64,000 nucleotides of DNA from Nakamurella aerolata (GTDB lineage Bacteria > Actinomycetota > Actinomycetes > Mycobacteriales > Nakamurellaceae), in assembly GCF_013002705.1 (NCBI RefSeq), contig NZ_JABEND010000010.1, positions 62,001 to 126,000 of the forward strand, in the 5' to 3' direction. Shown here in pieces: positions 7,397 to 45,913 of the stretch. Each line of letters starts with the position of its first letter. The first letter of the stretch is position 1. A model generated the notes under the pieces. That model did not search any database. It was not told the origin of the DNA and worked only from the letters and a program-made list of their open reading frames with translations. The translations under genes were made by a program, and so were the position numbers.

Positions 7397-7470
7397 ATCA
7401 CAACCGTTCCGGTACGTCACAATCGCTGCAGCACGCTGGACCGGTTGTGACGTACTGAAATGGTTGTGAT
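7397..7470 (+). repeat. 74-bp long-hairpin element, copy 1
   Basis: Bases 7397-7425 (starting ATCACAACCGTTCCGGTACG) pair with 7442-7470 (ending AATGGTTGTGAT) as a 29-bp stem with few mismatches, mostly G/T wobbles. The 16-nt loop begins CTGCAGCACG. Each arm itself repeats TCACAACC. Four other full copies lie at 7648, 41253, 41468 and 45840, all in the same orientation. Confidence 0.85.
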
Positions 7471-7505
7471 CGCGAAAACTGCATGGATGCCGGGCGCCGT
7501 CTTGA

Positions 7506-7813
7506 ACAGCGTCGGGCCGGAGGGGGCGGTTGGATAGCGCCGCGTCGAACAGCGCCGGGTCGGAGGGGCCGGTGTTGGATAGCGCCGCGTCGGACAGCGC
7601 CGGGTCGGAGGGGGCGGTCGGACAGCGTCACTTCGGACAGAGCGCCCATCACAACCGTTCCGGTACGTCACAACCGCTGCAGCACGCCGGAACGGTTGTG
7701 ACGTACTGAAACGGTTGTGATCGCGAGAAGTGCCTAGTTGGGCGGCGCCGTCGGGCAGTGCCGCTTTGGACAGCGCCGGGTCGGAGGGGCGCCGTTGAAC
7801 AGCGCCTCGTCGG
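7506..7813 (+). repeat. Degenerate 15-bp tandem array interrupted by a hairpin element
   Basis: Units such as ACAGCGCCGGGTCGG, ATAGCGCCGCGTCGG and AGGGGCCGGTGTTGG follow each other at 13-15 bp steps from 7506 to 7636. The array resumes at 7741-7813 on the other side of the hairpin element at 7648-7721. I count about nine units before and five after. No open reading frame with coding character covers it. Confidence 0.75.
7648..7721 (+). repeat. 74-bp long-hairpin element, copy 2
   Basis: Same architecture as the copy at 7397: a 29-bp inverted repeat, loop CTGCAGCACGCCGGAA and outer arms ATCACAACCGTT / AACGGTTGTGAT. It shares the loop variant CACG with copy 1, whereas the three distant copies have CAGG. 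It sits inside the 15-bp array, 240 bp beyond the 3' end of tRNA-Arg. Confidence 0.85.
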
Positions 7814-7961
7814 GACGGCAGTCCGAGAAGCACCCCTTGCGCAGGCCCACGGCCGCCCACCGGGCCCACAAAAGAAGGCCCACCGGGCCCACCAAACAAG
7901 TAGGCCGAGCCTGCACGACGCAGGTCCGGCCCATCCCGACGTCCAGAGACATCGCGAAAAG

Positions 7962-8035
7962 CGCGCCCAGCAGGATTCGAACCTGCGACCGGCGGATTAG
8001 AAGTCCGCTGCTCTATCCAGCTGAGCTATGGGCGC
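7962..8035 (-). tRNA. tRNA-Arg(TCT)
   Basis: On the minus strand the acceptor stem is GCGCCCA/TGGGCGC, the D-arm is AGCTCAGCTGGATAGAGC, the anticodon loop is CTTCTAA with anticodon TCT, and the T-arm contains GGTTCGAATCC. CCA is not encoded. A TTTT run follows a few bases after the 3' end. Confidence 0.97.
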
Positions 8036-8072
8036 CCAAGGGAAGCGTAGCGGGGCCGCTCGGTCGGCTCGT

Positions 8073-8078
8073 TACCCT
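8073..8078 (+). promoter_or_regulatory. -10 box (TACCCT) for a leaderless CtaG-CopD mRNA
   Basis: TACCCT ends exactly 6 nt before the GTG at 8085 and no ribosome binding site is present. This places the expected transcription start on the first base of the start codon. Confidence 0.5.
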
Positions 8079-8084
8079 AGGACC

Positions 8085-10226
8085 GTGCCGCCTCCCGTGC
8101 TTGACCGTGCCGCACCAGCTGCGGGCCAACCGCCCACCTCACGTCGCTGGTCGACTGCGGGGCTCGTCGTGGTGGCAACTCTGGTCGCGGCGGCGGTGGC
8201 CGCGCTGCTCACGTCGATCACCCAGCCGCGGGTACTGATTCTTGGACTTGGCCAACCGGGTCCTGCCACCGAGTACGGGCTGCCGATCGTCAAGGGCATC
8301 TTCGACCTGAGCGCGGCGCTCACCATCGGATGGTTGTTGGCGGCGGCCTGGTTGGTGCCGCCGGCGCGGTCCGGCACGTTCACCGTTGGGGGTTACCGGG
8401 CGGTGCGGGCGGCCTCCGCATGCGCCTTTGTCTGGGTCGCCGCGGGGCTGATGTTGGTGCCGCTCAACACATCTGAGGGCTCCGGTGAATCGCTGGTGGC
8501 GGCGCTCAGCGCTGACCAGATTCTGGTAGGGCTGTCGGCGTTGACCTCGATCAGCGCGCCGCTGCAGGCCGCTGGGGTGGCTCTGGTGGTGGCGTTGCTG
8601 GCGCGAGTGTTGCTGCGGCCCGGCGGCGCCTGGCTGCTGATGGGCCTGGCCGTCGTCGGGCTGTTGCCGATCGCGTTGGCCGGGCACACTGCGTCGTCCG
8701 GCGCCCACGACATCGCCTCCGACACCATGATCTACCACCTGGTCGGCGTCTCGTTGTGGGTCGGCGGCCTGGTCGCCCTGGTCGGGCTGACGCGGCAGCG
8801 GGTCAGCTTCCTGTCGGTGATCGCGCGTCGTTACTCGGCGGTGGCGTTGATCGCCTTTGTGGCGGTGAGCCTGTCCGGGATCGGGAACGCCTGGATCCGC
8901 TTCAGCTCGCCGGCCGACCTGTTCAGTACCGACTACGGCCGACTGGTGCTGGTCAAGGCGGCGCTGCTGGTGCTGCTCGGCGTCCTCGGCGCGCTGCACC
9001 GTTCCCGCACGCTGCGGCAGCTCGACTCCGGACGACGCGCCCCGCTGCTGCGGCTGGCCGGCGTCGAAGTTCTGCTGATGGCCGCGACCATCGGCGTCGC
9101 GGTCGCCCTGGGTCGCACCGCGACCCCGCCGCCGTCCGGCGTGGTGCCGGGCGGCTACGAGGAGGTCCTCGGCTACCCGCTGCCGGGTCGTCCGACGGTG
9201 TGGACCCTGCTGACGAGCTGGCGGTTCGATCTGATGCTCGGGACGTTGTCGGTGGTCGCCATCGTGCTCTACCTGGTCGGTGTGCTGCGGCTGCGCCGAC
9301 GGGGCATCGGCTGGTCGATCTGGCGCACCACTCCCTGGGTGGTGGGCTGGCTGATGGTGCTGATGGCCACCTCGTCGGGATTCGGGCGGTACGGCGCCGC
9401 GCAGTTCTCGATCCACATGATGGACCACATGGCGCTCGGCATGATGGCGCCGATCCTGCTGGTGCTCGGCGGCCCGATCACCTTGGCACTGCGGGTGCTT
9501 CCGGCCGCGGGGCCGGCGGACCCGCCGGGAATGCGTGAGCTACTGGTGCGGATGGTGCACTCTCCGCTGGCCCGATGGATCACCCACCCGCTTGTGGTGT
9601 TCTTCCTGTTCATCGGTTCGTTCTACGCGCTGTACTTCACCAGTCTGTTCCAGACCCTGATGTCCGGTCACCTCGGGCATCTGGCCATGAATCTGCACTT
9701 CTTGTTGGTCGGCTATCTGTACTACTGGGTGATCATCGGGGTGGACCCGTCGCCGCGGCGGCTGCATCCGATGGCGAAACTGGGATTGCTGTTGGGCGCC
9801 TTGCCGTTCCACGCCTTCTTCGGGCTGGCCTTGATGCAGAGCCGGACGTCGATCGCGCCCGACTACTTCGGTGGCCTGAACCTGCCGTGGGTGAACGACA
9901 TCGTGGCGGACCAGCGGCTCGGTGGCGCGATCGCTTGGGGCGCAACCGAAGTGCCGATCATCATCGTGGTGATCGCGTTGCTCAGCCAGTGGTCGGCCAG
10001 CGACGCGCGGCAGGCCAAGCGGGCCGACAAACTCGGCGATACCCGCGCCGACGACGAGCTGGACGCGTACAACGCGATGCTGGCCGAGTTGGCGTTCCGT
10101 GACGTCGAGCAGCGCCCGGAGTCCGGTCGCGTGCCCCGCAGGAGCGCCGACGACGACACGTCCGTTGCCAGCGGTACGGCGCCTGTGGCGCAGTCGGACC
10201 CCGACAGCTCCGCCGACTCCCGCTGA
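8085..10226 (+). CDS. CopD-CtaG fusion: copper import / cytochrome oxidase assembly membrane protein
   Basis: A 713-residue integral membrane protein with about 15 hydrophobic segments. The N-terminal half resembles CopD (LAGHTASSGAHD, then YHLVGVSLWVGGLVAL with conserved His). The C-terminal half resembles caa3-type CtaG (SIHMMDHMALGMMAPILL, GHLGHLAMNLHFLLVGYLYYW, PFHAFFGLALMQS), with His-rich helices that probably bind copper. The same fusion occurs in mycobacteria. It should deliver copper for the CuB site of cytochrome oxidase. I start at the GTG at 8085 because the longer reading frame from 8028 would overlap tRNA-Arg. The last 90 residues are a hydrophilic cytosolic tail. Confidence 0.88.
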   Translation: MPPPVLDRAAPAAGQPPTSRRWSTAGLVVVATLVAAAVAALLTSITQPRVLILGLGQPGPATEYGLPIVKGIFDLSAALTIGWLLAAAWLVPPARSGTFTVGGYRAVRAASACAFVWVAAGLMLVPLNTSEGSGESLVAALSADQILVGLSALTSISAPLQAAGVALVVALLARVLLRPGGAWLLMGLAVVGLLPIALAGHTASSGAHDIASDTMIYHLVGVSLWVGGLVALVGLTRQRVSFLSVIARRYSAVALIAFVAVSLSGIGNAWIRFSSPADLFSTDYGRLVLVKAALLVLLGVLGALHRSRTLRQLDSGRRAPLLRLAGVEVLLMAATIGVAVALGRTATPPPSGVVPGGYEEVLGYPLPGRPTVWTLLTSWRFDLMLGTLSVVAIVLYLVGVLRLRRRGIGWSIWRTTPWVVGWLMVLMATSSGFGRYGAAQFSIHMMDHMALGMMAPILLVLGGPITLALRVLPAAGPADPPGMRELLVRMVHSPLARWITHPLVVFFLFIGSFYALYFTSLFQTLMSGHLGHLAMNLHFLLVGYLYYWVIIGVDPSPRRLHPMAKLGLLLGALPFHAFFGLALMQSRTSIAPDYFGGLNLPWVNDIVADQRLGGAIAWGATEVPIIIVVIALLSQWSASDARQAKRADKLGDTRADDELDAYNAMLAELAFRDVEQRPESGRVPRRSADDDTSVASGTAPVAQSDPDSSADSR

Positions 10227-10474
10227 CCGACGGCCCTAGCGCTCGGCTCCGACAGTGATGCTGTTATGGCGTCCTCTGGGGTTGTGACTCTGGCTCCGAC
10301 CGACGCCCTGCTGGGCTGTCTTTCCGATGTTCCGTCCAACCCTGGGGGACGCGTTCCACCCGGTGCTGCCGGGCTGGTTGGACATGACCTCATAGGGGCT
10401 TCGCCCACTGCGTGATCACTGTCCTGTCTGACCAGCCGGCTCGGTGGCCAACAACCACGGATAGGACAACCGGT
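10227..10474 (+). ncRNA. Candidate IS110 bridge-RNA leader
   Basis: This non-coding stretch separates the CtaG stop from the IS110 transposase start. GTCCAACC at 10334-10341 pairs perfectly with GGTTGGAC at 10376-10383, enclosing a second perfect stem CCCGG/CCGGG (10359-10363 / 10369-10373) with a TGCTG loop. A small ACAG-TGATG-CTGT hairpin lies at 10252-10264. IS110-group elements are known to encode a structured bridge RNA 5' of the recombinase gene, so this is the expected place. The ends of the RNA and of the element are not resolved. Confidence 0.5.
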
Positions 10475-11674
10475 TTGACGACATCACCCGAGGTGATCGG
10501 CGGCGCCGACACCCACACCGACACGCTGCACGTCGCCGTGATCACCACCCTCGGCCAGCACCTCGACGATCACGAGTTCCCGACCACGGCCGTTGGTTAC
10601 ACCGCGGCGATCGCGTTCCTGACCAGCCACGGCACCCTGCGACGGGTTGGGATCGAGGGCACCAGCTCCTACGGCGCCGGCCTGGCCGCCGCCTGCCTGA
10701 CGGCCGGGATCGAGGTGGTGGAAGTGAACAGTCCCAGCCGCGGTGACCGCCGCAGGAAAGGCAAATCCGATCCGCTCGATGCGTTCCACGCCGCCCACGC
10801 GGTGCTGTCCGGCCGCGCCACAGCGGCCCCGAAGGATCCCTCGATCGAAGCGATCCGCAGCCTGCATGTTGCTCGCCGGTCGGCGGTGAAGGCCCGTACC
10901 GCGACGATGCAGCAGATCCACACTGCGCTGGTCCGCGCCCCCGAACCGGTGCGCGGCAAGTACCGCGAGCTCACCGACAGCAAACTCGTCACAGCGCTTG
11001 CGCGGTGCCGGCCAGCAGCAGCCGGCGACCCCGTCATTCGTAGTGTGTTGACCGCGCTACGTGCTTTGGCCGAGCGACACCTGTTCCTCGGCAACCAGAT
11101 CAAAGACCTGGACGCGAACATCGACGAACTGGTGACCGCCGCGAACCCCGGTTTGCGGGCCAGCCATGGTGTCGGATCCGACACCGCCGCGCAGTTGCTG
11201 ATCACCGCCGGCGGCAACCCCGAACGCCTCACCTCGGAAGCCTCGTTCGCCGCCCGGTGCGGCGTCGCACCTGTACCAGCTTCCTCAGGCAGAACCGTGC
11301 GGCACCGGCTGTCCCGCGGCGGTGATCGGCACGCCAACAACGCCCTCTACCGGATCGCCGTCGTGCGAATGTCCAACCACCCACCAACCCATGCCTACGT
11401 GGTGCGGCAAGTCGCCGCCGGACGGTCGAAACCCGAAATCATCCGAATGCTGAAACGGGCCATCGCCCGTGAAATCCACCGGCACCTCACCCAGGCGACA
11501 CCGGTACCGGCCTACGACGACCTCCGCCCGGCCCGGCAAGCGAAGAACATCACCCTGACCGCCGCGGCGAACCACTTCGGTGTCTGGCCGATCGTGATCT
11601 CCCGGATCGAACGCGGACTCCAACGCCACGACCAACTCGCCGACCAATACCGCGACTGGCTCGCTGTGGCCTAG
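10475..11674 (+). mobile_element. IS110-family transposase (DEDD recombinase) with C-terminal HTH extension
   Basis: The protein has the N-terminal RuvC-like DEDD domain: first acidic residue in VIGGADTHTDTLHVAV, Glu in VGIEGTSSYG, and KSDPLDAFHAA. It also has the C-terminal Transposase_20 domain with the catalytic Ser region (VAPVPASSGRTVRHRLSRGG, then DRHANNALYRIA). The last 45 residues (KNITLTAAANHFGVWPIVIS, then RIERGLQR) look like an added XRE-type helix-turn-helix. I prefer a TTG start at 10475 because AGGA lies 8 nt upstream and IGGADTH then falls at the usual N-terminal position; a GTG at 10412 is in frame but lacks a ribosome binding site. The gene is intact. Confidence 0.9.
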
Positions 11675-11754
11675 CTGGTCCTGGCCGCGGTCTTGCGATG
11701 GGAATAGTGGCTTCCCACGCGGGGCTGTCGGTGGTTGCTGCTAGGAAACCCGGT

Positions 11755-12204
11755 ATGGATGAGACGGAGGCAGTGTTCCCACCCTTCGCGGTGACGCCGG
11801 CGGCGGTGGAACAGATAGAAGCGCTGGGCGGTGCGGTGTTGATCGACGTCGAGGCCGGCGGGTGCTGCGGGAGCACGTACGCGTTCCGGGTGGTCGAGGA
11901 TCCGGACGCTGCTGTCGTCGAAAGTGACCGGTACGGCTGTCCGGGCGCGTGGTTGTTCGTGGGCACTGGTGTCCGGGAGGTGATGCCAGGAGCCACGTTG
12001 GACTACTCGTCGCGCCTCAAGCCACCTCGGTTCCGGGTATTGAGAAACCCGAACACCGACGATGTTTGTGCATGTCGACGGTCCTTCGGGAGCCCCTGGC
12101 CCGGTCCGGGTCAGCCCGGGTGCCGCTCGTACAGTCCGATGCCGTGGGACACCGAGTTCGATCCGCCTAGTCGATGGAAGAAGCAGACCGGTTACGGTCG
12201 TTGA
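11755..12204 (+). CDS. HesB/IscA-like iron-sulfur protein
   Basis: A 149-residue protein with an A-type Fe-S carrier fold in residues 10-115: FAVTPAAVEQIEAL, GAVLIDVEAGGCCGSTYAFR, and the C-terminal CxC in NPNTDDVCACRRSFG. Canonical IscA uses one Cys after the second strand and a CGC near the end; here CC and CAC occupy those places. A Cys-containing tail follows (PGQPGCRSYSPMPWDTEFDPP). The ATG at 11755 has AGGAA 8 nt upstream and is preferred over an earlier in-frame ATG. Its last 38 bases overlap the convergent P-type ATPase gene. Whether it assembles clusters or is a metal-related accessory is open. Confidence 0.7.
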   Translation: MDETEAVFPPFAVTPAAVEQIEALGGAVLIDVEAGGCCGSTYAFRVVEDPDAAVVESDRYGCPGAWLFVGTGVREVMPGATLDYSSRLKPPRFRVLRNPNTDDVCACRRSFGSPWPGPGQPGCRSYSPMPWDTEFDPPSRWKKQTGYGR

Positions 12205-14077
12205 TCCGTACCCGGCGCCCGGGGATCAGGCGCGCGGAGTTGAGGATGAACGCTGTCTCGCTGCCGACGTGGATGATCGCGGCGATCACGGGGCCGAGGA
12301 TTCCGAAGGCGGCCAGTCCCATCCCGAGGAGGTCGACGGCGATTGTCCCGACGAAGTTGAACATGACGATTCGCCGGGCGCGGCAAGCAACGTGCACGGT
12401 GTGGGTCAGGTCGTTCAGGTCGGAGCTGATGAGCACGATATCGGCGCTTTCGCGAGCGATGTCGGTACCGCTGCCCATCGCGATCCCGATGTCGGCGTGG
12501 GCCAGCGCGGGTGCGTCGTTGACACCATCGCCGACCATCGCCAGGGTGTGGCCGGCCGCGCGTTCGGCATCGATTGCGGCCAGCTTCTGATCGGGAAGCA
12601 GGCCGGCCCGTACGTCGTCGATGCCTAGCTCCGCGGCGACCGCCTGAGCGGTCATCTCCTGGTCGCCGGTGATCATCAGCGTGCGTAAGCCGCGTCGATG
12701 CAGGTCGGTGATCGATCGGCGGGCACTGTCGCGGATGACGTCGGCCAGCAAGATGGTGCCGACGTAGCCCTCGTTAGCGCTGACGTGCACGGCGGTGGCG
12801 ATACCTTGCGCTGGCAGGGTTTCCGGGGCGTCGGGGACGAGTGTGCGGTTGCCGGCCGCCACCTTCTTGCCGGCGACGGTGGCGCTGACGCCCTGTCCGG
12901 GTTGGTAGGTGAAGTGTTCGGACGGGCCGACGGGTAGACCCTGGGCACGTGCGTGGGCGACGATGGCTTGCCCGAGGGGGTGTTCTGAATAGGACTCGGC
13001 GGCGGCGGCAAGCATCAGCAGCGCCTCGGTCGTGATCCCGTCGACGGTGCGGATGTCCACCACGCTGGGGCTTCCGGTGGTGAGGGTGCCGGTCTTGTCG
13101 AAGACGATCGTGTCCGCCGTCGACAGAGCTTCCAGGTGCGCCCCGTCCTTGACGAATGCTCCGGACCGGGCTATCCGTGCTATCGCTGCGAGCACTGCGA
13201 GCGGCGTTCCGGCGGCGATACCGCAGGCACCGGCGACCACGACGACGGAAATCGTGGCCGTCCAGTCCCGGGTGGTCAGGAAAGTGACCACCGCGCCGGT
13301 CAGGGCGAGATAGACGAGGTAGGCGGCGAGCCGGTCCGCGAGCCGCTGCACCGGGGGTTCGGAGGATTGTGCTTGGCGGACCGCTTCGACGATGCGGCCG
13401 TAGGACGAGTCCGCGCCGACCCTTTCAGCCCGGATTTCGACGGCGCCGACCTGATTGATCGAACCGGCGAAAACCTCGCTGCCAACGGTGATGTCGACGG
13501 GCAGCGATTCCCCGGTGATTCGGGACTGGTCCGCTGTCGACTGGCCGGCAACAACCACACCATCGACGGGGATGCGTCCGCCCGGCGCGACCACGAGTAG
13601 CTGACCGGGCTGGACCTCACCGAGCGGAGTTGTTCTCGTTTCGCCACCGACACGGACCTGCACGGTCTGCGGCAGGAACGTCATCAGATCGGTCAGGGCA
13701 TCGCGACCGCGGTCCATCGACAGGTCTTCGAGGATCTCGGCGGCGAGCACGAACGTGGTGATCAGCAATGCGGTCAGCCACTCGCCGATCGCCGCCGCCG
13801 CCACGATGGCGATGAGCATCGACAACTCCATGCTCATCCGCCGATGCCGGATGTCTTCCCACGCCTCCATCACGATGGGCCAGCAGCCCACGATCAGGCC
13901 CGCCAGGGCGACCACCGGAACAGTCGGCCAGGGCCACGTCAACCCGAGGGCCGTGGCTGCCGTGCACGCGGCAATGAACAGGGTCCGGGCCAGGTCGCCG
14001 CGGTCAACCCGCGACCACAAGCCGCGCAGCCCATGCCGCTGGGTCAAGTCCGGACCCGCCTCGGTCTCAAGGATCAC
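12167..14077 (-). CDS. Heavy-metal P1B-type ATPase lacking the CPC motif
   Basis: A 636-residue metal-exporting P-type ATPase without an N-terminal HMA domain. The signatures are complete: TGE (188-190), phosphorylated Asp327 in FDKTGTLTTG, SEHPLG (His366) and GDGVNDAPA. The metal-site helix reads VVAGACGIAAGTPLAVLAAI, with Ala-Cys-Gly (284-286) where copper or zinc pumps have Cys-Pro-Cys. The metal is therefore not predictable from motif class. It is the second gene of an operon behind the ArsR sensor (ATGA overlap), whose ligand set suggests nickel or cobalt. Confidence 0.88.
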   Translation of the reverse strand: MILETEAGPDLTQRHGLRGLWSRVDRGDLARTLFIAACTAATALGLTWPWPTVPVVALAGLIVGCWPIVMEAWEDIRHRRMSMELSMLIAIVAAAAIGEWLTALLITTFVLAAEILEDLSMDRGRDALTDLMTFLPQTVQVRVGGETRTTPLGEVQPGQLLVVAPGGRIPVDGVVVAGQSTADQSRITGESLPVDITVGSEVFAGSINQVGAVEIRAERVGADSSYGRIVEAVRQAQSSEPPVQRLADRLAAYLVYLALTGAVVTFLTTRDWTATISVVVVAGACGIAAGTPLAVLAAIARIARSGAFVKDGAHLEALSTADTIVFDKTGTLTTGSPSVVDIRTVDGITTEALLMLAAAAESYSEHPLGQAIVAHARAQGLPVGPSEHFTYQPGQGVSATVAGKKVAAGNRTLVPDAPETLPAQGIATAVHVSANEGYVGTILLADVIRDSARRSITDLHRRGLRTLMITGDQEMTAQAVAAELGIDDVRAGLLPDQKLAAIDAERAAGHTLAMVGDGVNDAPALAHADIGIAMGSGTDIARESADIVLISSDLNDLTHTVHVACRARRIVMFNFVGTIAVDLLGMGLAAFGILGPVIAAIIHVGSETAFILNSARLIPGRRVRINDRNRSASSID

Positions 14078-14472
14078 GAGTCTGACGCCGCTGCAGGATC
14101 CGCGCTAACCGGCATCCCGGCCGAGTCCAGGTGATGCTCGGGTACGCCACCGCCTACGACATGCTCGGCCTGGAACACCGCATGCGTCACCAGCTGGCGG
14201 GCGTGCTCATCGATCAGGCTGTAGAAAACCCGGGTCCCGTCCTGACGCGCGGCCACGACCTTGCCCCACCGCAACTTCGCCAGATGCTGCGACACCACCG
14301 TCGGCGGCCGGCCGATTCGCTCGGCCAACTCGCCCACAGCCAACTCACCGGACCGCAGCGCCAGAATGATCCTGATCCGCGTCGCATCCGACAGCAGACT
14401 GAATACCTCCGCCGCCAAGTCCACGTACTGGCTCTCCGCGTCGAATGTGCATAACTTAGAACCTTCGCTCAT
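14074..14472 (-). CDS. ArsR/SmtB metal sensor, KmtR-like
   Basis: A 132-residue winged-helix repressor (VFSLLSDATRIRIILALRSG, recognition helix PPTVVSQHLAKLRW, wing ARQDGTRVFYSL). Candidate metal ligands lie in the last helix and tail: Asp88, His90, Glu103, His104, His113, His114. This resembles the KmtR set (His88, Glu101, His102, His110, His111) known for nickel/cobalt sensing in M. tuberculosis, with the last pair shifted by one residue. It overlaps the ATPase start in an ATGA. TAGTAT at 14479-14484 (minus strand) is 6 nt before the ATG, so the mRNA is likely leaderless and the repressor probably controls this promoter. Confidence 0.85.
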   Translation of the reverse strand: MSEGSKLCTFDAESQYVDLAAEVFSLLSDATRIRIILALRSGELAVGELAERIGRPPTVVSQHLAKLRWGKVVAARQDGTRVFYSLIDEHARQLVTHAVFQAEHVVGGGVPEHHLDSAGMPVSADPAAASDS

Positions 14473-14478
14473 ATGCAG

Positions 14479-14484
14479 ATACTA
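14479..14484 (-). promoter_or_regulatory. -10 box (TAGTAT) for a leaderless metal-sensor operon
   Basis: Read on the minus strand, TAGTAT is followed by CTGCAT and then the ATG at 14472, the 6-nt spacing expected when transcription starts at the start codon. A TTGATG about 20 nt upstream is a weak -35 candidate. Confidence 0.5.
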
Positions 14485-14691
14485 CGCCTGTTGCACCGCC
14501 TTGACATCAATAGGAGCATCACCGGTGCCGGCTATCCACAGGTTTTCCGGCTGGTTGTCCACCGGCGGGAAATCCATCCACATTCTTGGTATTCCGCTGG
14601 ATCGACGGACCACCGCTGAGCAGTCTCGGTAGGAGCCGCCGGCATCCGCTGGTCGGCTGTTACCTCTTATCGAGCGGAAAGGAGCACCGTG

Positions 14692-15279: not shown

Positions 15280-15344
15280 CCTGCGCCGTTCCGACTCACC
15301 TGTTCCGGCTCGCCCCGTTCGGAGTCGGTCCGTTCTGGGGCCGC
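15271..15344 (+). repeat. 15-bp tandem array starting at the ssb stop codon
   Basis: Five units aligned on CCGTTC/CTGTTC follow each other at about 15 bp: CCGTTCTGACCTGCG, CCGTTCCGACTCAC, CTGTTCCGGCTCGCC, CCGTTCGGAGTCGGT, CCGTTCTGGGGCCGC. The first unit contains the TGA stop of the ssb gene. Confidence 0.65.
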
Positions 15345-15430
15345 CCCGCACCAGCAGGTGCTTGATCCGCGGGGCCGATTCTGTGCCGCGGTGCGCGGGC
15401 CGCGGCTGATGAGCCGCGCGCGTTGGTCCT

Positions 15431-16446: not shown

Positions 16447-16452
16447 CGACTG

Positions 16453-36469: not shown

Positions 36470-36476
36470 GGGAACA

Positions 36477-37281: not shown

Positions 37282-37287
37282 CCCATT

Positions 37288-37312: not shown

Positions 37313-37375
37313 GGAGCGCGCCGCGATCCGCGCGCCGCACTATCGCTGCACAGAGTTCTGTGCCACCGTTGATTC

Positions 37376-37876: not shown

Positions 37877-37925
37877 CCGGCCGGCTCACTCCGTGGCCGC
37901 CGGCCCGGCGTGACAGACTGGCGCT

Positions 37926-39044: not shown

Positions 39045-39082
39045 CGCGTCGCTGACCGTACCGTCCCACCCTGAGCGGGTGG

Positions 39083-40312
39083 TCAGCGCGCCGTCGCGCG
39101 GGCGGGAACGGGCGCGCCCTGGCCGATGTCGGCGAGCATCTCGGTGAACCACGGCGTGCTCAGATCGAACGGCTTACCGCCGGCAATGCGCTGGAACTCG
39201 ATGGGGCGCAAGATGTTTCCGCGCTCCTCGTCGTGCCCGATCACGCCCGAGGAGCCGCGCATGGCGCTGTCGACGGCAAGGTCCGTCATCGATTTGATCA
39301 GCCGCAGGTCTTCCGGATTGGCCGGCGCCGAGCGCGAGAAGTAGCCGGACTTCTGCACCATGACCTTTTCGGCACCGAGCTTTTCGGCGAACTGCTTGGC
39401 GAACCAGGCGCCCGGGTTGATGTCGTCCAACCGCACGTGCCCGAACGGGTCGCGGGCCGGGGGCGTACCCGCCGCCTCCAACTCGCGGACGATGGTGTCC
39501 ACCCCGGCGCCCTCCGACAAGAAGATGGTGACGTTGCCGACGGTGTCCATGATGTTCTTCAGCCGCGCCGACTCGGCCCGCAGGTCGAAATCGGCCTCTG
39601 GCACGTAGACGGCGTGCACGTCCCAGGCCTGCTTGGACAGCCCAATCTCCGGCAGCCACTGCCTGGTGTCCAGCCACTTGCGGTAGTCCGCGGCGGTGGC
39701 GGCGGTGAGCCACCCGCAGTTGCGGCCCATCACCTCGTGCACGATCAACATCCGGGCGCCGGAGTTGTGTTCACCGACAATGTTCTGGGCGAACCGCGAG
39801 CCCTGCTCGGCTGCGGTCCAGGCGCCCAGCGACTGCTTGATCGGCACCACGTCGTTGTCGATGGTCTTCGGCAGTCCGACAACGGTGAGCTGATAGTCGT
39901 TCTGCGCCAAGTACTTTGCAAGATCGGCTGCGGTGGTGTTGGTGTCGTCGCCGCCGATGGTGTGCAACACGTCGACGCCGTCGGCGGTGAGCCGGTCGGC
40001 GGCCACCTTGAGCGGATCGTCGCCCTCGTTCACCAGTCCGCGCTTGATCAGGTCTTTGACGTTGGTCAGCTTGACCCTTGAGTTGCCGATGGGGGAGCCG
40101 CCGTAGCTGTGCAGCAGACCGGCTTTCGCCCGGATCTCGGGAGTGACGGTGATCGAATCGCCGGACAGCAGACCCTGATAGCCGTGCTTGTACGCGATGA
40201 TCTCGACGTCTGGGGCCAGCTCGGTGTAGCGCTCGATGAGCCCCCCGACGGCCGACGACAGACACGGTGCGAATCCGCCCGCGGTGAGCAGGGCGACCTT
40301 CCTGATAGCCAT
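39083..40312 (-). CDS. pfp: Pyrophosphate-dependent 6-phosphofructokinase
   Basis: A 409-residue phosphofructokinase. The motif GGDDTNT (120-126) carries the second Asp typical of PPi-using enzymes in place of the Gly of ATP-PFKs. PKTIDND (149-155) holds the catalytic base and MGRNCGW contacts fructose-6-phosphate. The reaction is reversible, so it can serve glycolysis or gluconeogenesis. The ATG at 40312 is preceded by TAGGCT (40320-40325, minus strand) at 7 nt, again leaderless-like. It is monocistronic as far as can be seen. Confidence 0.92.
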   Translation of the reverse strand: MAIRKVALLTAGGFAPCLSSAVGGLIERYTELAPDVEIIAYKHGYQGLLSGDSITVTPEIRAKAGLLHSYGGSPIGNSRVKLTNVKDLIKRGLVNEGDDPLKVAADRLTADGVDVLHTIGGDDTNTTAADLAKYLAQNDYQLTVVGLPKTIDNDVVPIKQSLGAWTAAEQGSRFAQNIVGEHNSGARMLIVHEVMGRNCGWLTAATAADYRKWLDTRQWLPEIGLSKQAWDVHAVYVPEADFDLRAESARLKNIMDTVGNVTIFLSEGAGVDTIVRELEAAGTPPARDPFGHVRLDDINPGAWFAKQFAEKLGAEKVMVQKSGYFSRSAPANPEDLRLIKSMTDLAVDSAMRGSSGVIGHDEERGNILRPIEFQRIAGGKPFDLSTPWFTEMLADIGQGAPVPARATAR

Positions 40313-40319
40313 GCCGGAA

Positions 40320-40325
40320 AGCCTA
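40320..40325 (-). promoter_or_regulatory. -10 box (TAGGCT) for leaderless pfp
   Basis: On the minus strand TAGGCT is followed by TTCCGGC and then the ATG at 40312. No Shine-Dalgarno sequence is visible. Confidence 0.45.
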
Positions 40326-40413
40326 TCGAGAGCGCTTTCGCCGGCTGAGCCCGCACCGCGGTGCCCGGCCGAGCCCGCGCCTGGCTTGATCGAGCGCCGG
40401 TGCCGGCGGGCGC

Positions 40414-41060
40414 TCAGCCTTCGTCGTCCGGCAACAGATGCCCACGCACGGGTGTGATGCCGAAGTTGTCGAGCTCGACTCGACCGCCCAGCGCGACGGG
40501 GAGGGTCAGGCCGTAGTACGTGTCGGCCCGCAACGTTCCGTATCGACGGCGCAGCCGCTTGAACAACGGTTTCTTCTTCCCGTCGATGACGTCGAATTGC
40601 TTCGGCCGGGCGAGGATCGTGGGTTCCACCGGCAGGGTGGGCAGGCCGTTGGCGACGTCGCGGGAGTAGTCGGCTCCGGTGATCCAGTGATACATCGGGT
40701 CGATGGCGATCGCGACCCCGTGTGTGGGTGACCAACAGCGCATCTCGCCGAACGCCGTGCGCAACCACGGGTGGTACGGCCCGGTCAGCAGGGCCGGGTC
40801 CAGCCGGGGCGACAGCACCGTGCAGAGCGGAAGTTGCGCGCCGGCGACCGCCGTCCACTCCGCCGGATCGGTGAACCAGGCCAGCCCGTCACCGAAGCTG
40901 CGAAACCGACCTGTTCCCACCAGGTGAGCACGATGTCGGGCAGTCTGCCGCGCCAGGTATCGAAGGTCTCCGCCGGGACCGGCGGACCCGGCTCGACCGA
41001 ACCCATCTCTTCGACGAACATCTGCAGCAACTCATCGGTGATCTCCGGGTGCTCGGCCAC
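40414..41060 (-). pseudogene. GAD-like/DUF1851 protein, frameshifted
   Basis: The gene begins at the GTG at 41060 (VAEHPEITDELLQMFVEEMG, then FDTWRGRLPDIVLTWWEQVG). It must change frame near 40905 to continue as SFGDGLAWFTDPAEW and CTVLSPRLDPALLTG, ending LDNFGITPVRGHLLPDDEG. Together these make the GAD-like plus DUF1851 architecture found in immunity-type proteins (Tdi1 relatives) of contact-dependent toxins. One missing base at the junction explains the break. No partner toxin is nearby. A sequencing error is possible. Confidence 0.72.
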
Positions 41061-41100
41061 GCTTGACCACGTTAGTGAGGTTCGGCTCGCCGGGACGCGC

Positions 41101-41175
41101 TCGCGCAGGTTCTGGCACGACGCACACCCGCTGCCTGTCGGTAGCTGTGCGCAGTGCCGAAAGGTGCGCGATCGG
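41101..41175 (+). repeat. 75-bp companion element, copy 2
   Basis: It matches 7258-7332 at about 80%, with the same ends (TCGCGCAGGTT and GAAAGGTGCGCGAT). As at the first locus, a hairpin element follows, here 77 bp later. Confidence 0.65.
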
Positions 41176-41252
41176 GATGGCGCGCGGCCGCACCGTGATG
41201 GTGAGCTGCCGTCCGTAGCAGTCATCTGCGCAGTGAACCTTCAAACCCGTCG

Positions 41253-41326
41253 ATCACAACCGTTTCGGTACGTCACAACCGCTGCAGCAGGCTGGAACGG
41301 TTGTGACGTACTGGAATGGTTGTGAT
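41253..41326 (+). repeat. 74-bp long-hairpin element, copy 3
   Basis: A 29-bp inverted repeat (ATCACAACCGTTTCGGTACG at the left, AATGGTTGTGAT at the right) around the loop CTGCAGCAGGCTGGAA. Together with the following 140 bp it forms the first unit of a 215-bp segmental duplication whose second unit starts at 41468. Confidence 0.85.
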
Positions 41327-41467
41327 CGCGGGTGGGGGCCGGCTCGATGAGCGGGGACGGGGTGCGCTCCGCGTTGTGGCGGTGCTCCCAGTTCGTCGGG
41401 TGCTCACACCTCGTTGCTGTGCCTAATCGAGCGTGCGGATTTCGCCGGCTCGCTCTGCTCCTGGCCG

Positions 41468-41541
41468 ATCACAACAGTTTTGGTACGTCACAACCGCTGC
41501 AGCAGGCTAGACCGGTTGTGACGTACTGGAATGGTTGTGAT
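41468..41541 (+). repeat. 74-bp long-hairpin element, copy 4
   Basis: Same structure, with more arm substitutions (ATCACAACAGTTTTGGTACG) and loop CTGCAGCAGGCTAGAC. The flank after it (CGCGGGTGGGGCCGGTTC, then CTCGTCGCTGCGCTCC and GATTTGCGCCGG) parallels the flank of copy 3. It ends about 285 bp before the 3' end of tRNA-Pro. Confidence 0.85.
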
Positions 41542-41647
41542 CGCGGGTGGGGCCGGTTCATCGGTGAACGGGTCGGGGTGCTCCCCACCTCGTCGCTGCG
41601 CTCCTCGGCAGGGCCCGGGATTTGCGCCGGATCGCTTCGCTCTCGGC

Positions 41648-41659
41648 GTTCAAATCCTG
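41648..41659 (+). repeat. Inverted fragment of the tRNA-Pro T-arm
   Basis: GTTCAAATCCTG on the plus strand is identical to the T-arm of tRNA-Pro, which is on the minus strand at 41827-41900. The remainder of the tRNA 3' end appears inverted at 41777-41790. Confidence 0.4.
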
Positions 41660-41776
41660 GCTGTCGCCGGAAATCGCACGTGGGGCCCGCGAACAGCGTG
41701 CGGGCGCCACTTGCGATGTGTCGGGGTGCGCCCTTCTCCGGTCCGCTGGCGCGTCCCGGAGTGGGGTCCCGCATCA

Positions 41777-41836
41777 GTCACCCCGACAAACAGGCCCGAG
41801 ACCGCAAGCGGCCCCGGGCCGATTTGTCGGGGTGAC
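41777..41836. terminator. Long hairpin spanning the tRNA-Pro 3' end
   Basis: GTCACCCCGACAAA at 41777-41790 is a perfect inverted copy of TTTGTCGGGGTGAC at 41823-41836, which includes the last ten bases of tRNA-Pro. Inside it a second stem GGCCCG/CGGGCC (41793-41798 / 41815-41820) closes around a GC-rich loop. The inner stem followed by TGTTTGT on the minus strand could act as the tRNA terminator. The outer arm would compete with the acceptor stem. Confidence 0.65.
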
Positions 41837-41900
41837 AGGATTTGAACCTGCGACATCCTGCTCCCAAAGCAGGCGCGCTACCAAGCTGCGCTACACCCCG
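41827..41900 (-). tRNA. tRNA-Pro(TGG)
   Basis: On the minus strand the acceptor stem is CGGGGTG/CACCCCG, the anticodon loop is TTTGGGA with anticodon TGG, the T-arm is GCAGGTTCAAATCCTGT and the discriminator is A. CCA is not encoded. Confidence 0.96.
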
Positions 41901-41941
41901 TCGCGCCGAGAGGCTGGGCCAGTGGGCCCGGCCGGTCAGGC

Positions 41942-41966
41942 TACGATGGATCCGCACCAAAGGTGC
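41942..41966 (+). promoter_or_regulatory. -10 box and leader hairpin of tRNA-Gly
   Basis: TACGAT at 41942-41947 is a good -10 sequence. GCACC-AAA-GGTGC at 41954-41966 forms a 5-bp hairpin ending 3 nt before the tRNA and probably lies in the 5' leader. Confidence 0.4.
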
Positions 41967-41969
41967 AGC

Positions 41970-42043
41970 GCGGATGTAGCTCAATGGTAGAGCCTCAGTC
42001 TTCCAAACTGATGACGCGGGTTCGATTCCCGTCATCCGCTCCA
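41970..42043 (+). tRNA. tRNA-Gly(TCC)
   Basis: Acceptor stem GCGGATG/CATCCGC, D-arm AGCTCAATGGTAGAGC, anticodon loop CTTCCAA with anticodon TCC, T-arm GGGTTCGATTCCC, discriminator T. CCA is encoded at 42041-42043, unlike the other two tRNAs in the window. Confidence 0.97.
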
Positions 42044-42090
42044 ATGTCGTCCGCTCCAATGTCGTCCGCTCCAATGTCGATGGCTCCACT
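42031..42090 (+). repeat. 15-bp tandem amplification of the tRNA-Gly 3' end
   Basis: GTCATCCGCTCCAAT at 42031-42045 contains the tRNA 3' terminus including CCA. It is followed by two copies of GTCGTCCGCTCCAAT (42046-42060, 42061-42075) and a degenerate GTCGATGGCTCCACT (42076-42090). Confidence 0.9.
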
Positions 42091-42530
42091 GTCGACAGTC
42101 GCGACACGGCCGGCCGCTCCACTCCGACGGGACCACGCTGGTGTTCGCACGGCCCCACGGCGCTTCCACTCCACGGCGCTCCCGCTGCATCGGCGCTCCG
42201 CACACCATGACGCCCCGGTCGCACCCCGCTGCGCCCGCGAGCCGGATCGCAGCGACACCAGCCGAGGCACGGCCGCAACGTCCGTCGGCAATCCCGGGCC
42301 GATCGGAGGCGAGCTTCCGTAGCGCCGGGTGCACGGTGACCGTGTCCGACGCGCGCCTGCCGCTGCCCTTAGAATCGCTGTCGCGGCTTGTCACGGCCTT
42401 GAACGCCGGTGGTCGGCGAGTCGCGCGTTCTGTCGGCGCCGCCGCTACGGTGGGCCGATTCGCCGCGCCACCACCTGCATGCCACCAGCTCGCTGTCGCA
42501 TGCCAACCACTGTGTGAGGAGTTTCCCAGC
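42091..42530 (+). other. Intergenic leader region of tig
   Basis: About 440 bp between the tRNA-Gly array and trigger factor. An open frame crosses it but its translation is Arg/Pro-rich and non-conserved in character. It should contain the tig promoter, and GAGGAG at about 42516 is the tig ribosome binding site. I see no other convincing feature. Confidence 0.5.
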
Positions 42531-44087
42531 GTGAAGAGCACCGTCGAGCAGTTGAACCCGACCCGGGTGAAGCTCACCGTCGAGGTCCCGTTCTCCGAGC
42601 TCGACAGCCAATTCGATGCCGCCTACAAGGCTCTGGCCGGGCAGGTGAACATCCCGGGCTTCCGCAAGGGCAAGGTGCCGCCGAAGATCCTGGAGTCGCG
42701 GGTCGGTCGCGGCACCATCCTGTCCGAGGTGGTCAACGAGGCCATCCCGGCCAAGTACAGCGAGGCCGTTGAGGAGAACGACCTCACCCCGCTGGGCCAG
42801 CCGGAGATCGAGGTCACCAAGCTGGAGGACCGCGACACCCTTGAGTTCACCGCCGAGGTCGAGGTGCGTCCGGAGATCACGTTGCCGGCGGTCGGTGAGA
42901 TCAAGGTGACCGTCGACGACCAACCCGTCGATGACGACGCCGTCGACGCCGAGCTGGACGCGCTGCGCGGCCGGTTCGCCGCCAGCAACCCGGTCGAGCG
43001 GGCGGCCAAGGACGGCGACGCCGTCACCATCGATCTGTCGGCCAGCGTCGGCGGCGAGGACATCCCCGAGGCCAAGGCCGACGGCCTCACCTACGTGGTT
43101 GGCGCCGGTGATCTGGTGGACGGGATCGACGAGGCCATCACCGGACTGTCCGCCGGCGAGAGCAAGACCTTCACCAGCAAGCTGGTGGCCGGGCCGCACG
43201 CCGGCAAGGACGCCGAGATCACCGTCGCTGTGCAGCAGGTGTCGGAGCGGACGCTGCCCGAGCTCGACGACGATTTCGCGCAGCTTGCCAGCGAGTTCGA
43301 CACCGTCGACGAGCTGCGCGCGCAGACCCGCGAGCAGCTGGAACGTCAGGCCGAAGTGACCCGCGGCATGCAGGCAAGGGACAAGGTGCTCGAGGCGATG
43401 CTGGACATCACCGAGGTGCCGTTGCCCGAGGGTGCGCTGAAGGCCGAGATGGACGCGCGGGCGCACGACGCCGTGCACACCTTCGATCACGACGAGGCCC
43501 GGCTCAACGAGTTCATCGAGTCGCAGGGGCAGACTCGCGAAGAGTTCGACGCCGAAATGCGTTCCAACGCAGAGCGTTCGGTGAAAACCCAGCTGCTGCT
43601 GGACGCCCTGGCCGAGGAGCAGGGCGTCGGCGTCAGCCAGGAAGAGTTCACCCAGCGGGTGCTGTACGACGCGCAGCGTTTCGGCATGTCGCCGGACGAC
43701 TACTTCCAGGCGGTGCAGCAGAACAACCAGCTCGGCGCGATCTTCGCCGATGTTCGCCGGGGCAAGGCCCTGGCCGGCGTCGTCGGGCAGGCCACCGTTG
43801 TTGACCAGGCCGGTAACGAGCTGGACGTCGACGAGCTCTTCGGGGTGACGCCGGACGATGCCGAGGCCGCGGCCGCCGATGCTGCTGCGATGGCGGCCGT
43901 CGACGCCTACAGCTCGGGCGTCGACGCTGAAGACGCTGAAGACGCTGACGACGCTGAGGACGCCGAAGACGCTGAGGACGCCGAAGAGGCTGCGCCCGGC
44001 GACGGTTCGGACAGCGCCGAGGCCGGCACCGGCGCAGACACCAAGGCCGACAGCGCCGACACCGGCAAGAACACCGCAGGCAGCTGA
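42531..44087 (+). CDS. tig: Trigger factor
   Basis: A ribosome-associated chaperone and peptidyl-prolyl isomerase of 518 residues. The N-terminal ribosome-binding signature is present as VNIPGFRKGKVPPKILESRV. The FKBP-like PPIase domain (about 150-245) contains DGDAVTIDLSASVGG and LTYVVGAGDLVDGIDEAITG. The helical C-terminal domain follows. The last 80 residues are an Asp/Glu/Ala tail (DAEDAEDADDAEDAEDAEDA) longer than in E. coli. The GTG at 42531 has GAGGAG 9 nt upstream; the open frame extends 130 codons further but without conservation. It sits directly upstream of clpP1P2, as in mycobacteria (Rv2462c). Confidence 0.95.
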   Translation: MKSTVEQLNPTRVKLTVEVPFSELDSQFDAAYKALAGQVNIPGFRKGKVPPKILESRVGRGTILSEVVNEAIPAKYSEAVEENDLTPLGQPEIEVTKLEDRDTLEFTAEVEVRPEITLPAVGEIKVTVDDQPVDDDAVDAELDALRGRFAASNPVERAAKDGDAVTIDLSASVGGEDIPEAKADGLTYVVGAGDLVDGIDEAITGLSAGESKTFTSKLVAGPHAGKDAEITVAVQQVSERTLPELDDDFAQLASEFDTVDELRAQTREQLERQAEVTRGMQARDKVLEAMLDITEVPLPEGALKAEMDARAHDAVHTFDHDEARLNEFIESQGQTREEFDAEMRSNAERSVKTQLLLDALAEEQGVGVSQEEFTQRVLYDAQRFGMSPDDYFQAVQQNNQLGAIFADVRRGKALAGVVGQATVVDQAGNELDVDELFGVTPDDAEAAAADAAAMAAVDAYSSGVDAEDAEDADDAEDAEDAEDAEEAAPGDGSDSAEAGTGADTKADSADTGKNTAGS

Positions 44088-44101
44088 CCACCCGACCCGG
44101 C

Positions 44102-44145
44102 GCCGGGACGGGCCCCGCTCACGCCGTGAGCGAAACCGTCCCGGC
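44102..44145 (+). terminator. tig terminator, nested hairpin
   Basis: GCCGGGACGG (44102-44111) pairs with CCGTCCCGGC (44136-44145). A second hairpin GCTCAC-GCC-GTGAGC lies inside the loop. It is 15 bp after the tig stop and separates it from clpP1. Confidence 0.75.
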
Positions 44146-44348
44146 CCGGGCATGGTGAGCGCGGTCCCGTCGTTACTGTCGAAAAGCAAGGGGCAGCACC
44201 ACGTCCGTCCTGCAGCAACAGGCGAACGCGTCCTGCCGAAAGGACCGGCTGCTAAGGCTGTACCGCCGCGGTAGGCGAGTGGACCACCCCTTGAAGACGA
44301 GAAGTGCCCAGAGCTAGCCAGAAGTACCCAGAGCTACAAGGAGCAGAT

Positions 44349-45026
44349 GTGACCCACCGTTCTGCCGGCCACCCGCTGGCCGCCGTGGAGCAAGCCGCAC
44401 CGGAGATCTTGCCCGCCGTGATGCGCGGCACCCCGGGGCTCAACCTGTCCGACTCGGTGTCCGAACGGCTGCTGCGGGAACGCATCATTCTGCTTGGCTC
44501 AGAGGTGCGCGACACCAACGCGAACGAGATCGTCAGTCAGCTGCTGCTGCTCGCCGCCGAGGATCCGGAGAAGGACATCACCTTCTACATCAACTCGCCC
44601 GGCGGCAGTGTCACGGCCGGCATGGCCATCTACGACACCATGCAGCTGATCGAGCCGGACGTCGCCACCACCGCGATGGGCCTGGCCGCGTCGATGGGGC
44701 AGTTCCTGTTGACCGCCGGCGCCCCCGGAAAGCGCTCGGCGCTGCCGCACGCGCGGATCCTGATGCATCAGCCGTCCGCCGGTGTCGGCGGAACCGCAGC
44801 CGACATCGCGATCCAGGCCGACATGCTGACCAACTCCAAGAAGGAGATGGCCGAGCTGATCTCGCAGCACACCGGGCAGCCGGTGGATCGGATCATCGCC
44901 GACTCCGACCGGGACCGCTGGTTCACCGCTGAGGAAGCGAAGGACTACGGCTTCATCGACCGGGTGGTCAGCCGTGCCTCGCAGGCGCCCAGCGAAACCG
45001 CCGAGACGGCGACCGAGAAGAAGTAA
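44349..45026 (+). CDS. clpP1: ATP-dependent Clp protease proteolytic subunit ClpP1
   Basis: A 225-residue serine protease subunit. The catalytic Ser115 is in [10 protein letters not shown], His140 in ILMHQPSAG, and the Asp follows in the DSDRDRWF region. In actinobacteria ClpP1 and ClpP2 form a mixed two-ring tetradecamer active only with both subunits. The GTG at 44349 has AAGGAG upstream. It is followed after 14 bp by clpP2, so the two are co-expressed. Confidence 0.95.
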
Positions 45027-45040
45027 TACGAGGAAACCTT

Positions 45041-45712
45041 ATGTCTAACAACGGATATCCCACCGGCGCCGCGCACGGTCACGCCTTCGACCGCTCGCTG
45101 GCCGCGCCGCAGGCCCGCTACATCCTGCCGTCGTTCGTCGAGCGCACCAACTACGGGGTCAAGGAGTCGAACCCGTACAACAAGCTGTTCGAGGAGCGCA
45201 TCATCTTCCTCGGCGTGCAGATCGACGACGCGTCCGCCAACGACGTGATGGCCCAGCTGCTCACGCTGGAGTCCACCGACCCGGACCGCGAGATCATCAT
45301 GTACATCAACTCGCCGGGTGGTTCGTTCACCTCGATGACGGCGATCTACGACACCATGCAGTACGTGCGCCCGCACGTCCGCACGGTGTGCCTGGGCCAG
45401 GCCGCGTCGGCCGCCGCGGTGTTGCTGGCCGCCGGCTCGCCGGGCAAGCGGATGGCGCTGCCGAACTCGCGGATCCTGATCCACCAGCCGGCCACCGAGG
45501 GTGTCTACGGGCAGGTGTCCGACCTGGAGATCCAGGCCCAGGAGATCCAGCGGGTCCGCACCACCCTCGAGGAGATGCTGTCGCGGCACTCCAACCGGAC
45601 CGCCGAGCAGGTGCGCACCGACATCGACCGCGACAAGATCCTCACCGCGCAGGAGGCCAAGGAGTACGGCCTCATCGACGACGTGCTGCCGTACCGCAAG
45701 ATCGAGAACTGA
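45041..45712 (+). CDS. clpP2: ATP-dependent Clp protease proteolytic subunit ClpP2
   Basis: A 223-residue subunit partnering ClpP1. The catalytic Ser123 is in [12 protein letters not shown] and His148 in [10 protein letters not shown]; the C-terminus is LPYRKIEN. ClpP2 normally provides the ring that docks ClpX or ClpC1. AGGAAA lies before the ATG. No terminator follows; instead the gene is followed by a 14-15 bp tandem array and a hairpin element. Confidence 0.95.
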
Positions 45713-45723
45713 CCTCGAGCCGG

Positions 45724-45837
45724 CAAGAACAAGCCGGTCGAGCACAAGCCGGCCAAGCACGAGTCGGCAAGCGCAAGTCGTCAAGCACGAGCCGTCAAGC
45801 ACGAGCCGTCAAGCGCAAGCCAGCAAGCACAAGCCGT
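45724..45837 (+). repeat. 14-15 bp tandem array, eight units
   Basis: Units run from CAAGAACAAGCCGGT through CAAGCACGAGTCGG and two identical CAAGCACGAGCCGT to CAAGCACAAGCCGT, ending 2 bp before the hairpin element at 45840. The unit resembles that element's outer arm (CGATCACAACCCTT), so the array may derive from it. Confidence 0.8.
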
Positions 45838-45839
45838 CG

Positions 45840-45913
45840 ATCACAACCCTTTCGGTACGTCACAACCGCTGCAGCAGGCTGGAACGGTTGTGACGTACTG
45901 GAACGGTTGTGCT
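45840..45913 (+). repeat. 74-bp long-hairpin element, copy 5
   Basis: ATCACAACCCTTTCGGTACG at the left and CTGGAACGGTTGTGCT at the right form the 29-bp stem with two outer mismatches; the loop is CTGCAGCAGGCTGGAA as in copy 3. It lies between clpP2 and clpX, in the same orientation as both. Confidence 0.85.

Follow-up and report, generated by a model that had tools for sequence, protein, structure and literature searches.

Hairpins in the spacers of Nakamurella aerolata and beside nuclease-type genes across actinobacteria suggest an overlooked kind of small mobile DNA element

The 64,000-nucleotide stretch of the Nakamurella aerolata genome analyzed here (hereafter "the window"; positions 62,001 to 126,000 of contig NZ_JABEND010000010.1, or G000:C2:62001-126000 in the numbering used below, from a 4.35-Mb assembly of 22 contigs that is 95.3% complete) carries five copies of a long intergenic palindrome, referred to as family A, which lie in spacers ending at tRNA genes and in the spacer between a clpP2-like and a clpX-like gene (Table 1). 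An earlier note on this stretch, made from its letters alone, had described these five copies as long hairpins, and all of them are present at the places it gave, far beyond chance: an arm pattern allowing up to three mismatches finds 10 arms in the window, two per copy, and none in 100 dinucleotide shuffles, and DNA folding gives z values of -5.7 to -9.6 for the individual copies, with a fold as good in none of 200 shuffles.

The conserved block of family A is 80 bp in all five window copies, and in each arm a 19-bp unit occurs twice (with a lag of 19 in every one of the five); the element is therefore an array of four units, two forward and two reverse (F-F-R-R), and its conserved columns trace a single unit four times over (TCACAACCGTTTCGGTACG, TCACAACC... 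with their reverse complements), at a 19-bp pitch. The internal TCACAACC repeat that the earlier note had seen in each arm is this very unit, its split of the loop variants (CACG in the 7-kb cluster, CAGG elsewhere) is correct, and the long inverted repeat that it described is real, although its "16-nt loop" turns out to be where the inner portions of units 2 and 3 lie, partly paired. Over an alignment of 35 copies, conservation tracks the four CACAAC units, not pairing.

Genome-wide, blastn finds 36 family A places (35 full copies, which align without gaps over 91 columns, and one half), and a covariance model, which also recovers the sister families described below, adds a true member at C17:168985 and a mixed one at C12:599802, for a total of about 37; the absence of further copies, which the earlier note had named as speaking against its proposal, is thus not what is seen. 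Its remark that the copies point the same way holds for all five in the window but not for the genome, in which the best blastn strand is plus at 21 and minus at 15 of the 36 places, a few near-symmetric copies being ambiguous. Ten clusters of at least two copies, each in a single orientation, have spacings of 175 to 475 bp, and one of them is a four-copy tandem array with a period of about 176 bp. The exact unit pattern has 77 matches, as against one for a reversed control, and 76 of the 77 fall inside known elements, on which ground units or half-elements serving as transposon ends were rejected; one lone extra unit lies at C1:64800 (L261). Beyond N. aerolata, blastn finds a family A match in none of 40 relatives, 16 of them congeners, and the covariance model (150 first-look candidates scored per genome; the genus and family sets are the same 17 genomes) finds none in the 16 congeners, the one weak match, in congener G001, being a different palindrome; the family A arm likewise has no match among viral contigs. 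Family A is a set of many dispersed, species-specific, intergenic copies.

Its spacers are also a skewed sample. With genes called by an in-house codon-usage script, the 24 family A spacers comprise 12 convergent, 11 tandem (one of which depends on a doubtful 61-aa gene, L032) and one divergent, versus 13% convergent and 31% divergent among the spacer bases in 464 kb of the same genome, and a tRNA gene adjoins seven of the 24, versus 8% of spacer bases (binomial p: 2e-5 for the convergent excess, 0.003 for the divergent deficit and 0.003 for the tRNA adjacency). In the wide sense of the term, by which many dispersed intergenic palindromes, mainly in convergent or same-direction spacers, are called REP-like (REP: repetitive extragenic palindrome), family A belongs to that category. 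The clpP2-clpX spacer, predicted to be 625 bp in N. aerolata, exceeds that of several congeners; an F-F-R-R palindrome is found in none of 16 congeneric clpP2-clpX loci (the G008 locus is only 61% identical, and its orthology less sure), and some other hairpin, scoring 12 to 16, lies in or at the edge of the spacer in eight of the 16.

The F-F-R-R plan is not confined to family A. A palindrome finder was run on three stretches of the same genome (320, 80 and 64 kb) and on 400 kb of G001. It returned further families with this plan and different unit sequences, whereas one shuffle per stretch gave none at the score used; the 19-bp lag recurs in families B (TCGCGCACC/TCGCACACC), C (TCACAGCTG), D and E (both in G001) and F (G014), and other hairpins have other lags, several of them being simple repeats in coding DNA. 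Two other families of the order, sampled at 200 kb each, have other long hairpin families with no clear 19-bp lag. Several long hairpins with CTGCGGTGGAACC-like arms, a repeated family lacking that lag, occur in 200 kb of G033, from another family of the order (L213-L222), and two adjacent long hairpins in G017 (L203-L212, joined coordinates 95917-96260) have TCCTGCACTTTGGGTGCCTGGGTGCGCA-like arms in common.

Family B occupies 12 places in the N. aerolata genome: two flanking a gene, two in the window, two at C1:472988-473482, where it alternates with family A, and six elsewhere; A and B adjoin at three loci in total. The gene in question (C12:488064-489044) has family B palindromes at C12:487952-488026 and 489180-489252, family C palindromes surround the gene at C6:8435-9415, and flanks of the gene's own family on both sides of a nuclease-type gene are found for families B, C and G. 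Upstream of another gene of this nuclease-type family, three tandem ATTCAGCACCACTGCCATTCCCGG palindromes lie at 1192-1600 of L260 (G000:C12:552000-556400).

The product of the family C gene, which first drew attention because it lies between palindromes (Pfam or tblastn matches supplied the other seeds), is a 326-aa protein with AbiEi_4 just below the Pfam cut-off. Its relatives score AbiEi_4, DUF559 and REase_MTES_1575 (the last in L245), DUF559 exceeds the cut-off at five places in the N. aerolata genome, one of them a fragment, and every one of the 52 proteins in a broad alignment has a match to the PADLOC AbiEi models (residues 4-171 in one member shown in full). Conserved S-x-x-E, D, E-x-D-G and K/H positions are seen in these proteins, which we take to be those of a PD-(D/E)XK nuclease of the Vsr/DUF559 kind, and the second half of the protein would, as far as its sequence goes, fit such a nuclease. 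The profiles of the two subclasses, one nearest to the B and C proteins and the other DUF559-positive, align over 275 columns at 99.6%. A member of the latter (L245) matches PDB 3hrl, an "endonuclease-like protein", at E 5.8e-4; a PDB search with profile A5 returned nothing up to E = 1.

The B and C proteins are each other's closest relatives in the set (58% identity), and their genes form islands amid housekeeping genes: the family B gene (L258, G000:C12:486300-490800) adjoins an EF-Tu gene according to Pfam, and the family C gene (L109) a gene judged by eye to be rho-like. The ten neighbor genes of eight loci include those for EF-Tu, EPSP synthase, NucS and ketopantoate hydroxymethyltransferase, and none is an AbiEii nucleotidyltransferase; one neighbor, an ABC-transporter ATPase (PF00005), also matches AAA_21, the Pfam text of which reads "putative AbiEii toxin".

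How general the association of palindrome and gene is can be judged from two sets of loci. In the genus, profile A3 has 116 matches (some of them pieces of one gene) in 17 of 17 genomes, from which 55 loci were picked as top matches and by genome, leaving 49 after the removal of four duplicates (L224, L225, L231, L248) and two fragments (L226, L244). The upstream flank resembles the downstream one (local score of at least 20) at 30 of the 49 versus 3 of 487 controls, and two of those three are nuclease-type genes met by chance; a hairpin scoring at least 15 lies on either side of 30 of the 49 versus 50 of the 487 controls, and on both sides of 10 versus one. When the controls are narrowed to the 53 genes with spacers of at least 150 bp on both sides, flank similarity of at least 20 appears only in the same two nuclease-type genes.

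The second set comprises named Actinomycetota loci, the best 80 of at least 496 confirmed relatives, spread over Rhodococcus, Nocardia, Pseudonocardia, Blastococcus, Geodermatophilus, Kribbella, Microlunatus and others; it was reduced to 79 by the exclusion of L307 (downstream flank too short), and shares six genes with the genus set (from Nakamurella lactea, N. silvestris, N. leprariae and a Nakamurella metagenome assembly). Among these best-scoring relatives, alike flanks are found at 46 of 79 loci versus none of 151 windows from the same loci, a hairpin of at least 15 on either side at 55 of 79 versus 5 of 151, and hairpins on both sides at 20 of 79 versus none of 151. A significant inner repeat can be resolved in 32 of 75 flank palindromes, with a lag of 19 in 17, 20 in 13, 15 in one and 21 in one, so the build that characterizes the class, two 19-20 bp units per arm, is present in family A and in 30 of the 32. 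Dispersal is seen here as well: a Blastococcus flank palindrome occurs at six places in B. aggregatus (two of them gene ends) and at six in Blastococcus sp. TML/M2B, with 0, 1, 0 and 0 in the other four genomes. Likeness between the palindromes of different loci is clear only in a few close protein pairs (81%, 73% and 64% identity among the pairs printed), and many pairs of similar identity share nothing; judging by these comparisons, the palindromes appear to change fast, most genes owning a different family.

With the architecture, copy number, dispersal and species-specificity of the palindromes, their association with one kind of gene and the two-sided flanks at part of the loci as its observed basis, the interpretation we favor (probability of about 0.62) is that the five hairpins of the window are solo copies of a small mobile palindrome, held in a partnership like that of REPs and REP-associated tyrosine transposases (RAYT), only with an unrelated nuclease. 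The complete element would then be palindrome-gene-palindrome, and the solo palindromes its dependents, as REPs are to RAYT. Its recognition unit would be the 19-bp site, four per palindrome (two forward, two reverse), to which the winged helix of the protein presumably binds; the nuclease, being fused to this AbiEi-like binding half, would turn binding into cutting and would nick or cut at or near the palindrome or the target, after which host repair may copy the palindrome into a new spacer, whether through nick-and-repair copying, a homing-like conversion or some other route. Copies would persist mostly next to tRNA genes, in convergent spacers and elsewhere downstream of genes. Of the three readings that the earlier note had offered, its mobilized palindromic element is the one that fares best, given the dispersal, species-specificity and spacer location of the copies and a build like that of the nuclease flanks; the movement itself we infer.

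Family A, too, would once have had such a nuclease partner. The 19-bp pitch and F-F-R-R plan found in B and C as well, the B/C-like units and the adjacency to B at three loci suggest as much at the sequence level, and the lack of a cognate gene leaves architecture and adjacency to B as the link, which, being the weakest in the chain, is what keeps the above probability where it is. The partner may have been lost, may lie in the missing 5% of the assembly, or may be a protein that is present and acts in trans.

Several results weigh against the partnership as proposed. A search of the N. aerolata assembly with profile A4, carried to E = 5, gave eight matches, all of them genes already found and none cognate to family A. 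Neither an empty site nor a target duplication was found: in the one comparison of sister species, G003 and G010, which are about 92% identical in test loci, have no hairpin of at least 15 in either of the roughly 20-kb portions compared, and a plasmid search for strain pairs gave seven records, all below 60% identity. A hairpin of at least 15 also lies on either side of 12 of the 53 long-spacer control genes, neither alike flanks nor such a hairpin is seen at 19 of the 79 named and 11 of the 49 genus loci, and the correlation between palindrome and protein similarity is weak (Spearman 0.20; 1 of 999 permutations). Direct DUF559 scores in the subclass nearest to B and C are weak as well (2 of 52 at E <= 0.01), so what speaks for its nuclease half is the E-x-D-G motif, along with the way its profile aligns to that of the other subclass. 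Another copy in the available genome portion was found for the flank palindromes of 9 of 24 genes versus 41 of 125 intergenic hairpins, a control that is no lower, perhaps, we think, because intergenic long hairpins largely are such families (28 of 53 in G000). Lastly, covariation over the 35 family A copies is higher in the true register (0.078) than in slid ones (0.043-0.056), yet below that of shuffles (0.109).

That last value leads to the other two readings in the earlier note, a transcript-processing site and a source of double-stranded RNA, and to the related possibility that the hairpins are terminators or RNA-processing structures common to many transcripts. The strong stems would suit such a role, as would the convergent orientation of half of the family A spacers. 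That the arm differences are often wobble-compatible, as the earlier note had it, is not supported: among the five window copies, none of 38 pairs is changed on both sides, three are changed on one side and still paired, and 87.9% of cells pair versus 88.5% after shuffling. In the alignment of 35 copies the paired share of cells is 80.1%, less than in any of 500 shuffles (mean 82.6), and 8 pairs carry double changes versus 13.8 in shuffles; pairing in the true register does exceed that in slid registers (80% versus 33-43%), an excess that is inevitable for any palindrome. The arms thus diverge independently, which is the very observation that the earlier note had said would count against it, and the transcript-processing and double-stranded RNA readings are left unsupported. 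Nothing in the window but three tRNAs passes the Rfam gathering thresholds, and with the pair counts a structured RNA was rejected; an intrinsic terminator was rejected likewise, a T-run (at least five T in nine bases) following the stem in none of the 35 copies on either strand. A stem, moreover, needs no fourfold unit repeat, and the element is missing from all 16 congeneric clpP2-clpX loci, which makes the terminator or processing explanation very unlikely.

It could also be argued that the palindromes are operators, the AbiEi-like proteins repressing their own genes and the dispersed copies being a regulon or decoys, with no nuclease-driven movement involved. The flank palindromes often lie upstream of the nuclease-type genes, and AbiEi is described as binding two or four 23-bp inverted repeats in its own promoters (PMC7319586); palindromes also stand downstream and on both sides of the genes, however, the solo family A copies avoid the divergent spacers in which promoters would be shared (1 of 24), and the nuclease half is given no role, so that this explanation seems unlikely. 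We regard as more doubtful still the proposal that the palindromes are miniature inverted-repeat transposable elements (MITEs) of an ordinary transposon or REP/RAYT system, situated near AbiEi-like genes by chance: dispersed, palindromic, species-specific, intergenic repeats with a 176-bp tandem array are what it would predict, but one protein family is associated with them across Actinomycetota, half-ends of family A amount to one half copy and one lone unit, and PF01797 is absent from the N. aerolata genome (no search for DDE transposases was made). Four-site arrays do resemble the binding clusters of proteins, and host chromosome-organization sites, kept by selection for a nucleoid or segregation protein, might be imagined on that basis; such sites should hardly be lacking in 16 congeners, come in several unrelated families per genome or be paired, in the sister families, with nuclease-type genes, and this explanation is accordingly a highly improbable one.

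The nuclease-partnered palindrome resembles several known systems and coincides with none of them. Homing endonucleases (free-standing ones) and endonuclease-linked palindromes of organelles offer the precedent of a nuclease that spreads its own neighborhood by cutting and repair, a mode of spread that would be comparable, although neither an intron or intein nor a cut allele is seen here. DUF559/Vsr-like endonucleases share the D, E-x-D-G and K/H positions, and several members score as Pfam DUF559 or REase_MTES_1575, but here a winged helix forms part of the same protein, which is linked with a palindrome family. REPs (PMC2817692; PMC3733652) are often species-specific, intergenic palindromes mainly of convergent or same-direction spacers, with a RAYT gene flanked by its own repeats, and the elements described here agree in being palindromic, often species-specific, intergenic repeats with a partner gene flanked by its own repeats. 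REP units, however, are 20-40 bp long with GTAG/CGTC tags, the CGTC type having an 8-9 bp stem (PMC3733652), whereas family A is about 80 bp, has four 19-bp units and a long imperfect stem, and shows CGTC only inside the arm. The partner is a protein of AbiEi winged helix-turn-helix and PD-(D/E)XK type with no Y1 transposase, for which hydrolytic, not tyrosine, chemistry would be expected. A RAYT-type transposase, for which the earlier note had proposed to look, does not turn up: the Y1 transposase family PF01797 has 0 matches in the N. aerolata genome (and matches in 5 of 14 control genomes), the sister families having the other nuclease gene instead. The nuclease-linked palindromes, in short, would work like REP/RAYT yet lack the features that define REP/RAYT.

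As for AbiE type IV toxin-antitoxin systems, the nuclease-type proteins match AbiEi models throughout (52/52), and AbiEi binds inverted-repeat arrays beside its gene, occupying all four inverted repeats at once in the mycobacterial case (PMC7319586). Here, by contrast, a nuclease-like half follows, the repeats are also found downstream and scattered over the genome, and the partner AbiEii nucleotidyltransferase is not among the ten neighbor genes. The earlier note knew of no described family with this sequence, and the literature searched bears it out: nothing was found on a link of DUF559, AbiEi or Vsr-like proteins with palindromes, or on family A, subscription journals being poorly covered.

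The coordinates of the window features are collected in Table 1. Just upstream of the first family B copy, CATCACAACCGTTCGGG (7234-7250) looks, by eye, like a remnant of a family A arm; a 45-bp GTTGGATAGCGCCGCGTCG repeat (repeat D5) occurs in four copies at 7486-7794, around family A copies 1 and 2, and degenerate short repeats of the AAGCACGAGCCGGTCGAGC type, again by eye, occupy the spacer from the clpP2-like gene to copy 5 (45721-45836). Elsewhere in the window, a 300-bp repeat (repeat D2) is present in two copies, 85% alike, at 52750-53049 and 54343-54642.

Table 1. Palindromes and adjoining tRNA genes in the window (window positions).
Feature	Position	Strand	Remark
Diverged family B palindrome (TCGCGCA/TCGCACACC units)	7258..7328	.	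G000:C2:69258-69328, repeat D8; adjoins family A copies 1 and 2
Family A palindrome copy 1	7394..7473	+	Four 19-bp units, F-F-R-R
Family A palindrome copy 2	7645..7724	+	
tRNA-Arg (tct)	7961..8035	-	End of spacer holding copies 1 and 2
Diverged family B palindrome	41101..41175	.	G000:C2:103101-103175, hairpin 41098-41174; adjoins family A copies 3 and 4
Family A palindrome copy 3	41250..41329	+	
Family A palindrome copy 4	41465..41544	+	
tRNA-Pro (tgg)	41826..41900	-	End of spacer holding copies 3 and 4
Family A palindrome copy 5	45837..45916	+	Between clpP2-like and clpX-like genes (genes by Pfam)

Hairpins that flank nuclease genes across actinobacteria suggest that a type of small mobile DNA element has been overlooked. 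Whether this extends to a phylum-wide class in Actinomycetota, in which a winged-helix PD-(D/E)XK nuclease (in current annotation an AbiEi antitoxin or a DUF559 protein) spreads four-site palindromes of 19-20 bp units, with several fast-changing families per genome that are the source of much of the long-hairpin DNA in spacers, is a proposition to which we would give even odds. If true, the long palindromes in actinobacterial spacers would gain a partner and an origin, and a multi-copy gene family labeled antitoxin or DUF559 would gain a role; a REP/RAYT-like partnership would have evolved a second time, with unrelated enzymes; and a fast-changing site at a fixed 19-20 bp pitch would make these proteins a natural collection of DNA-binding nucleases whose likely target sites lie beside their genes.

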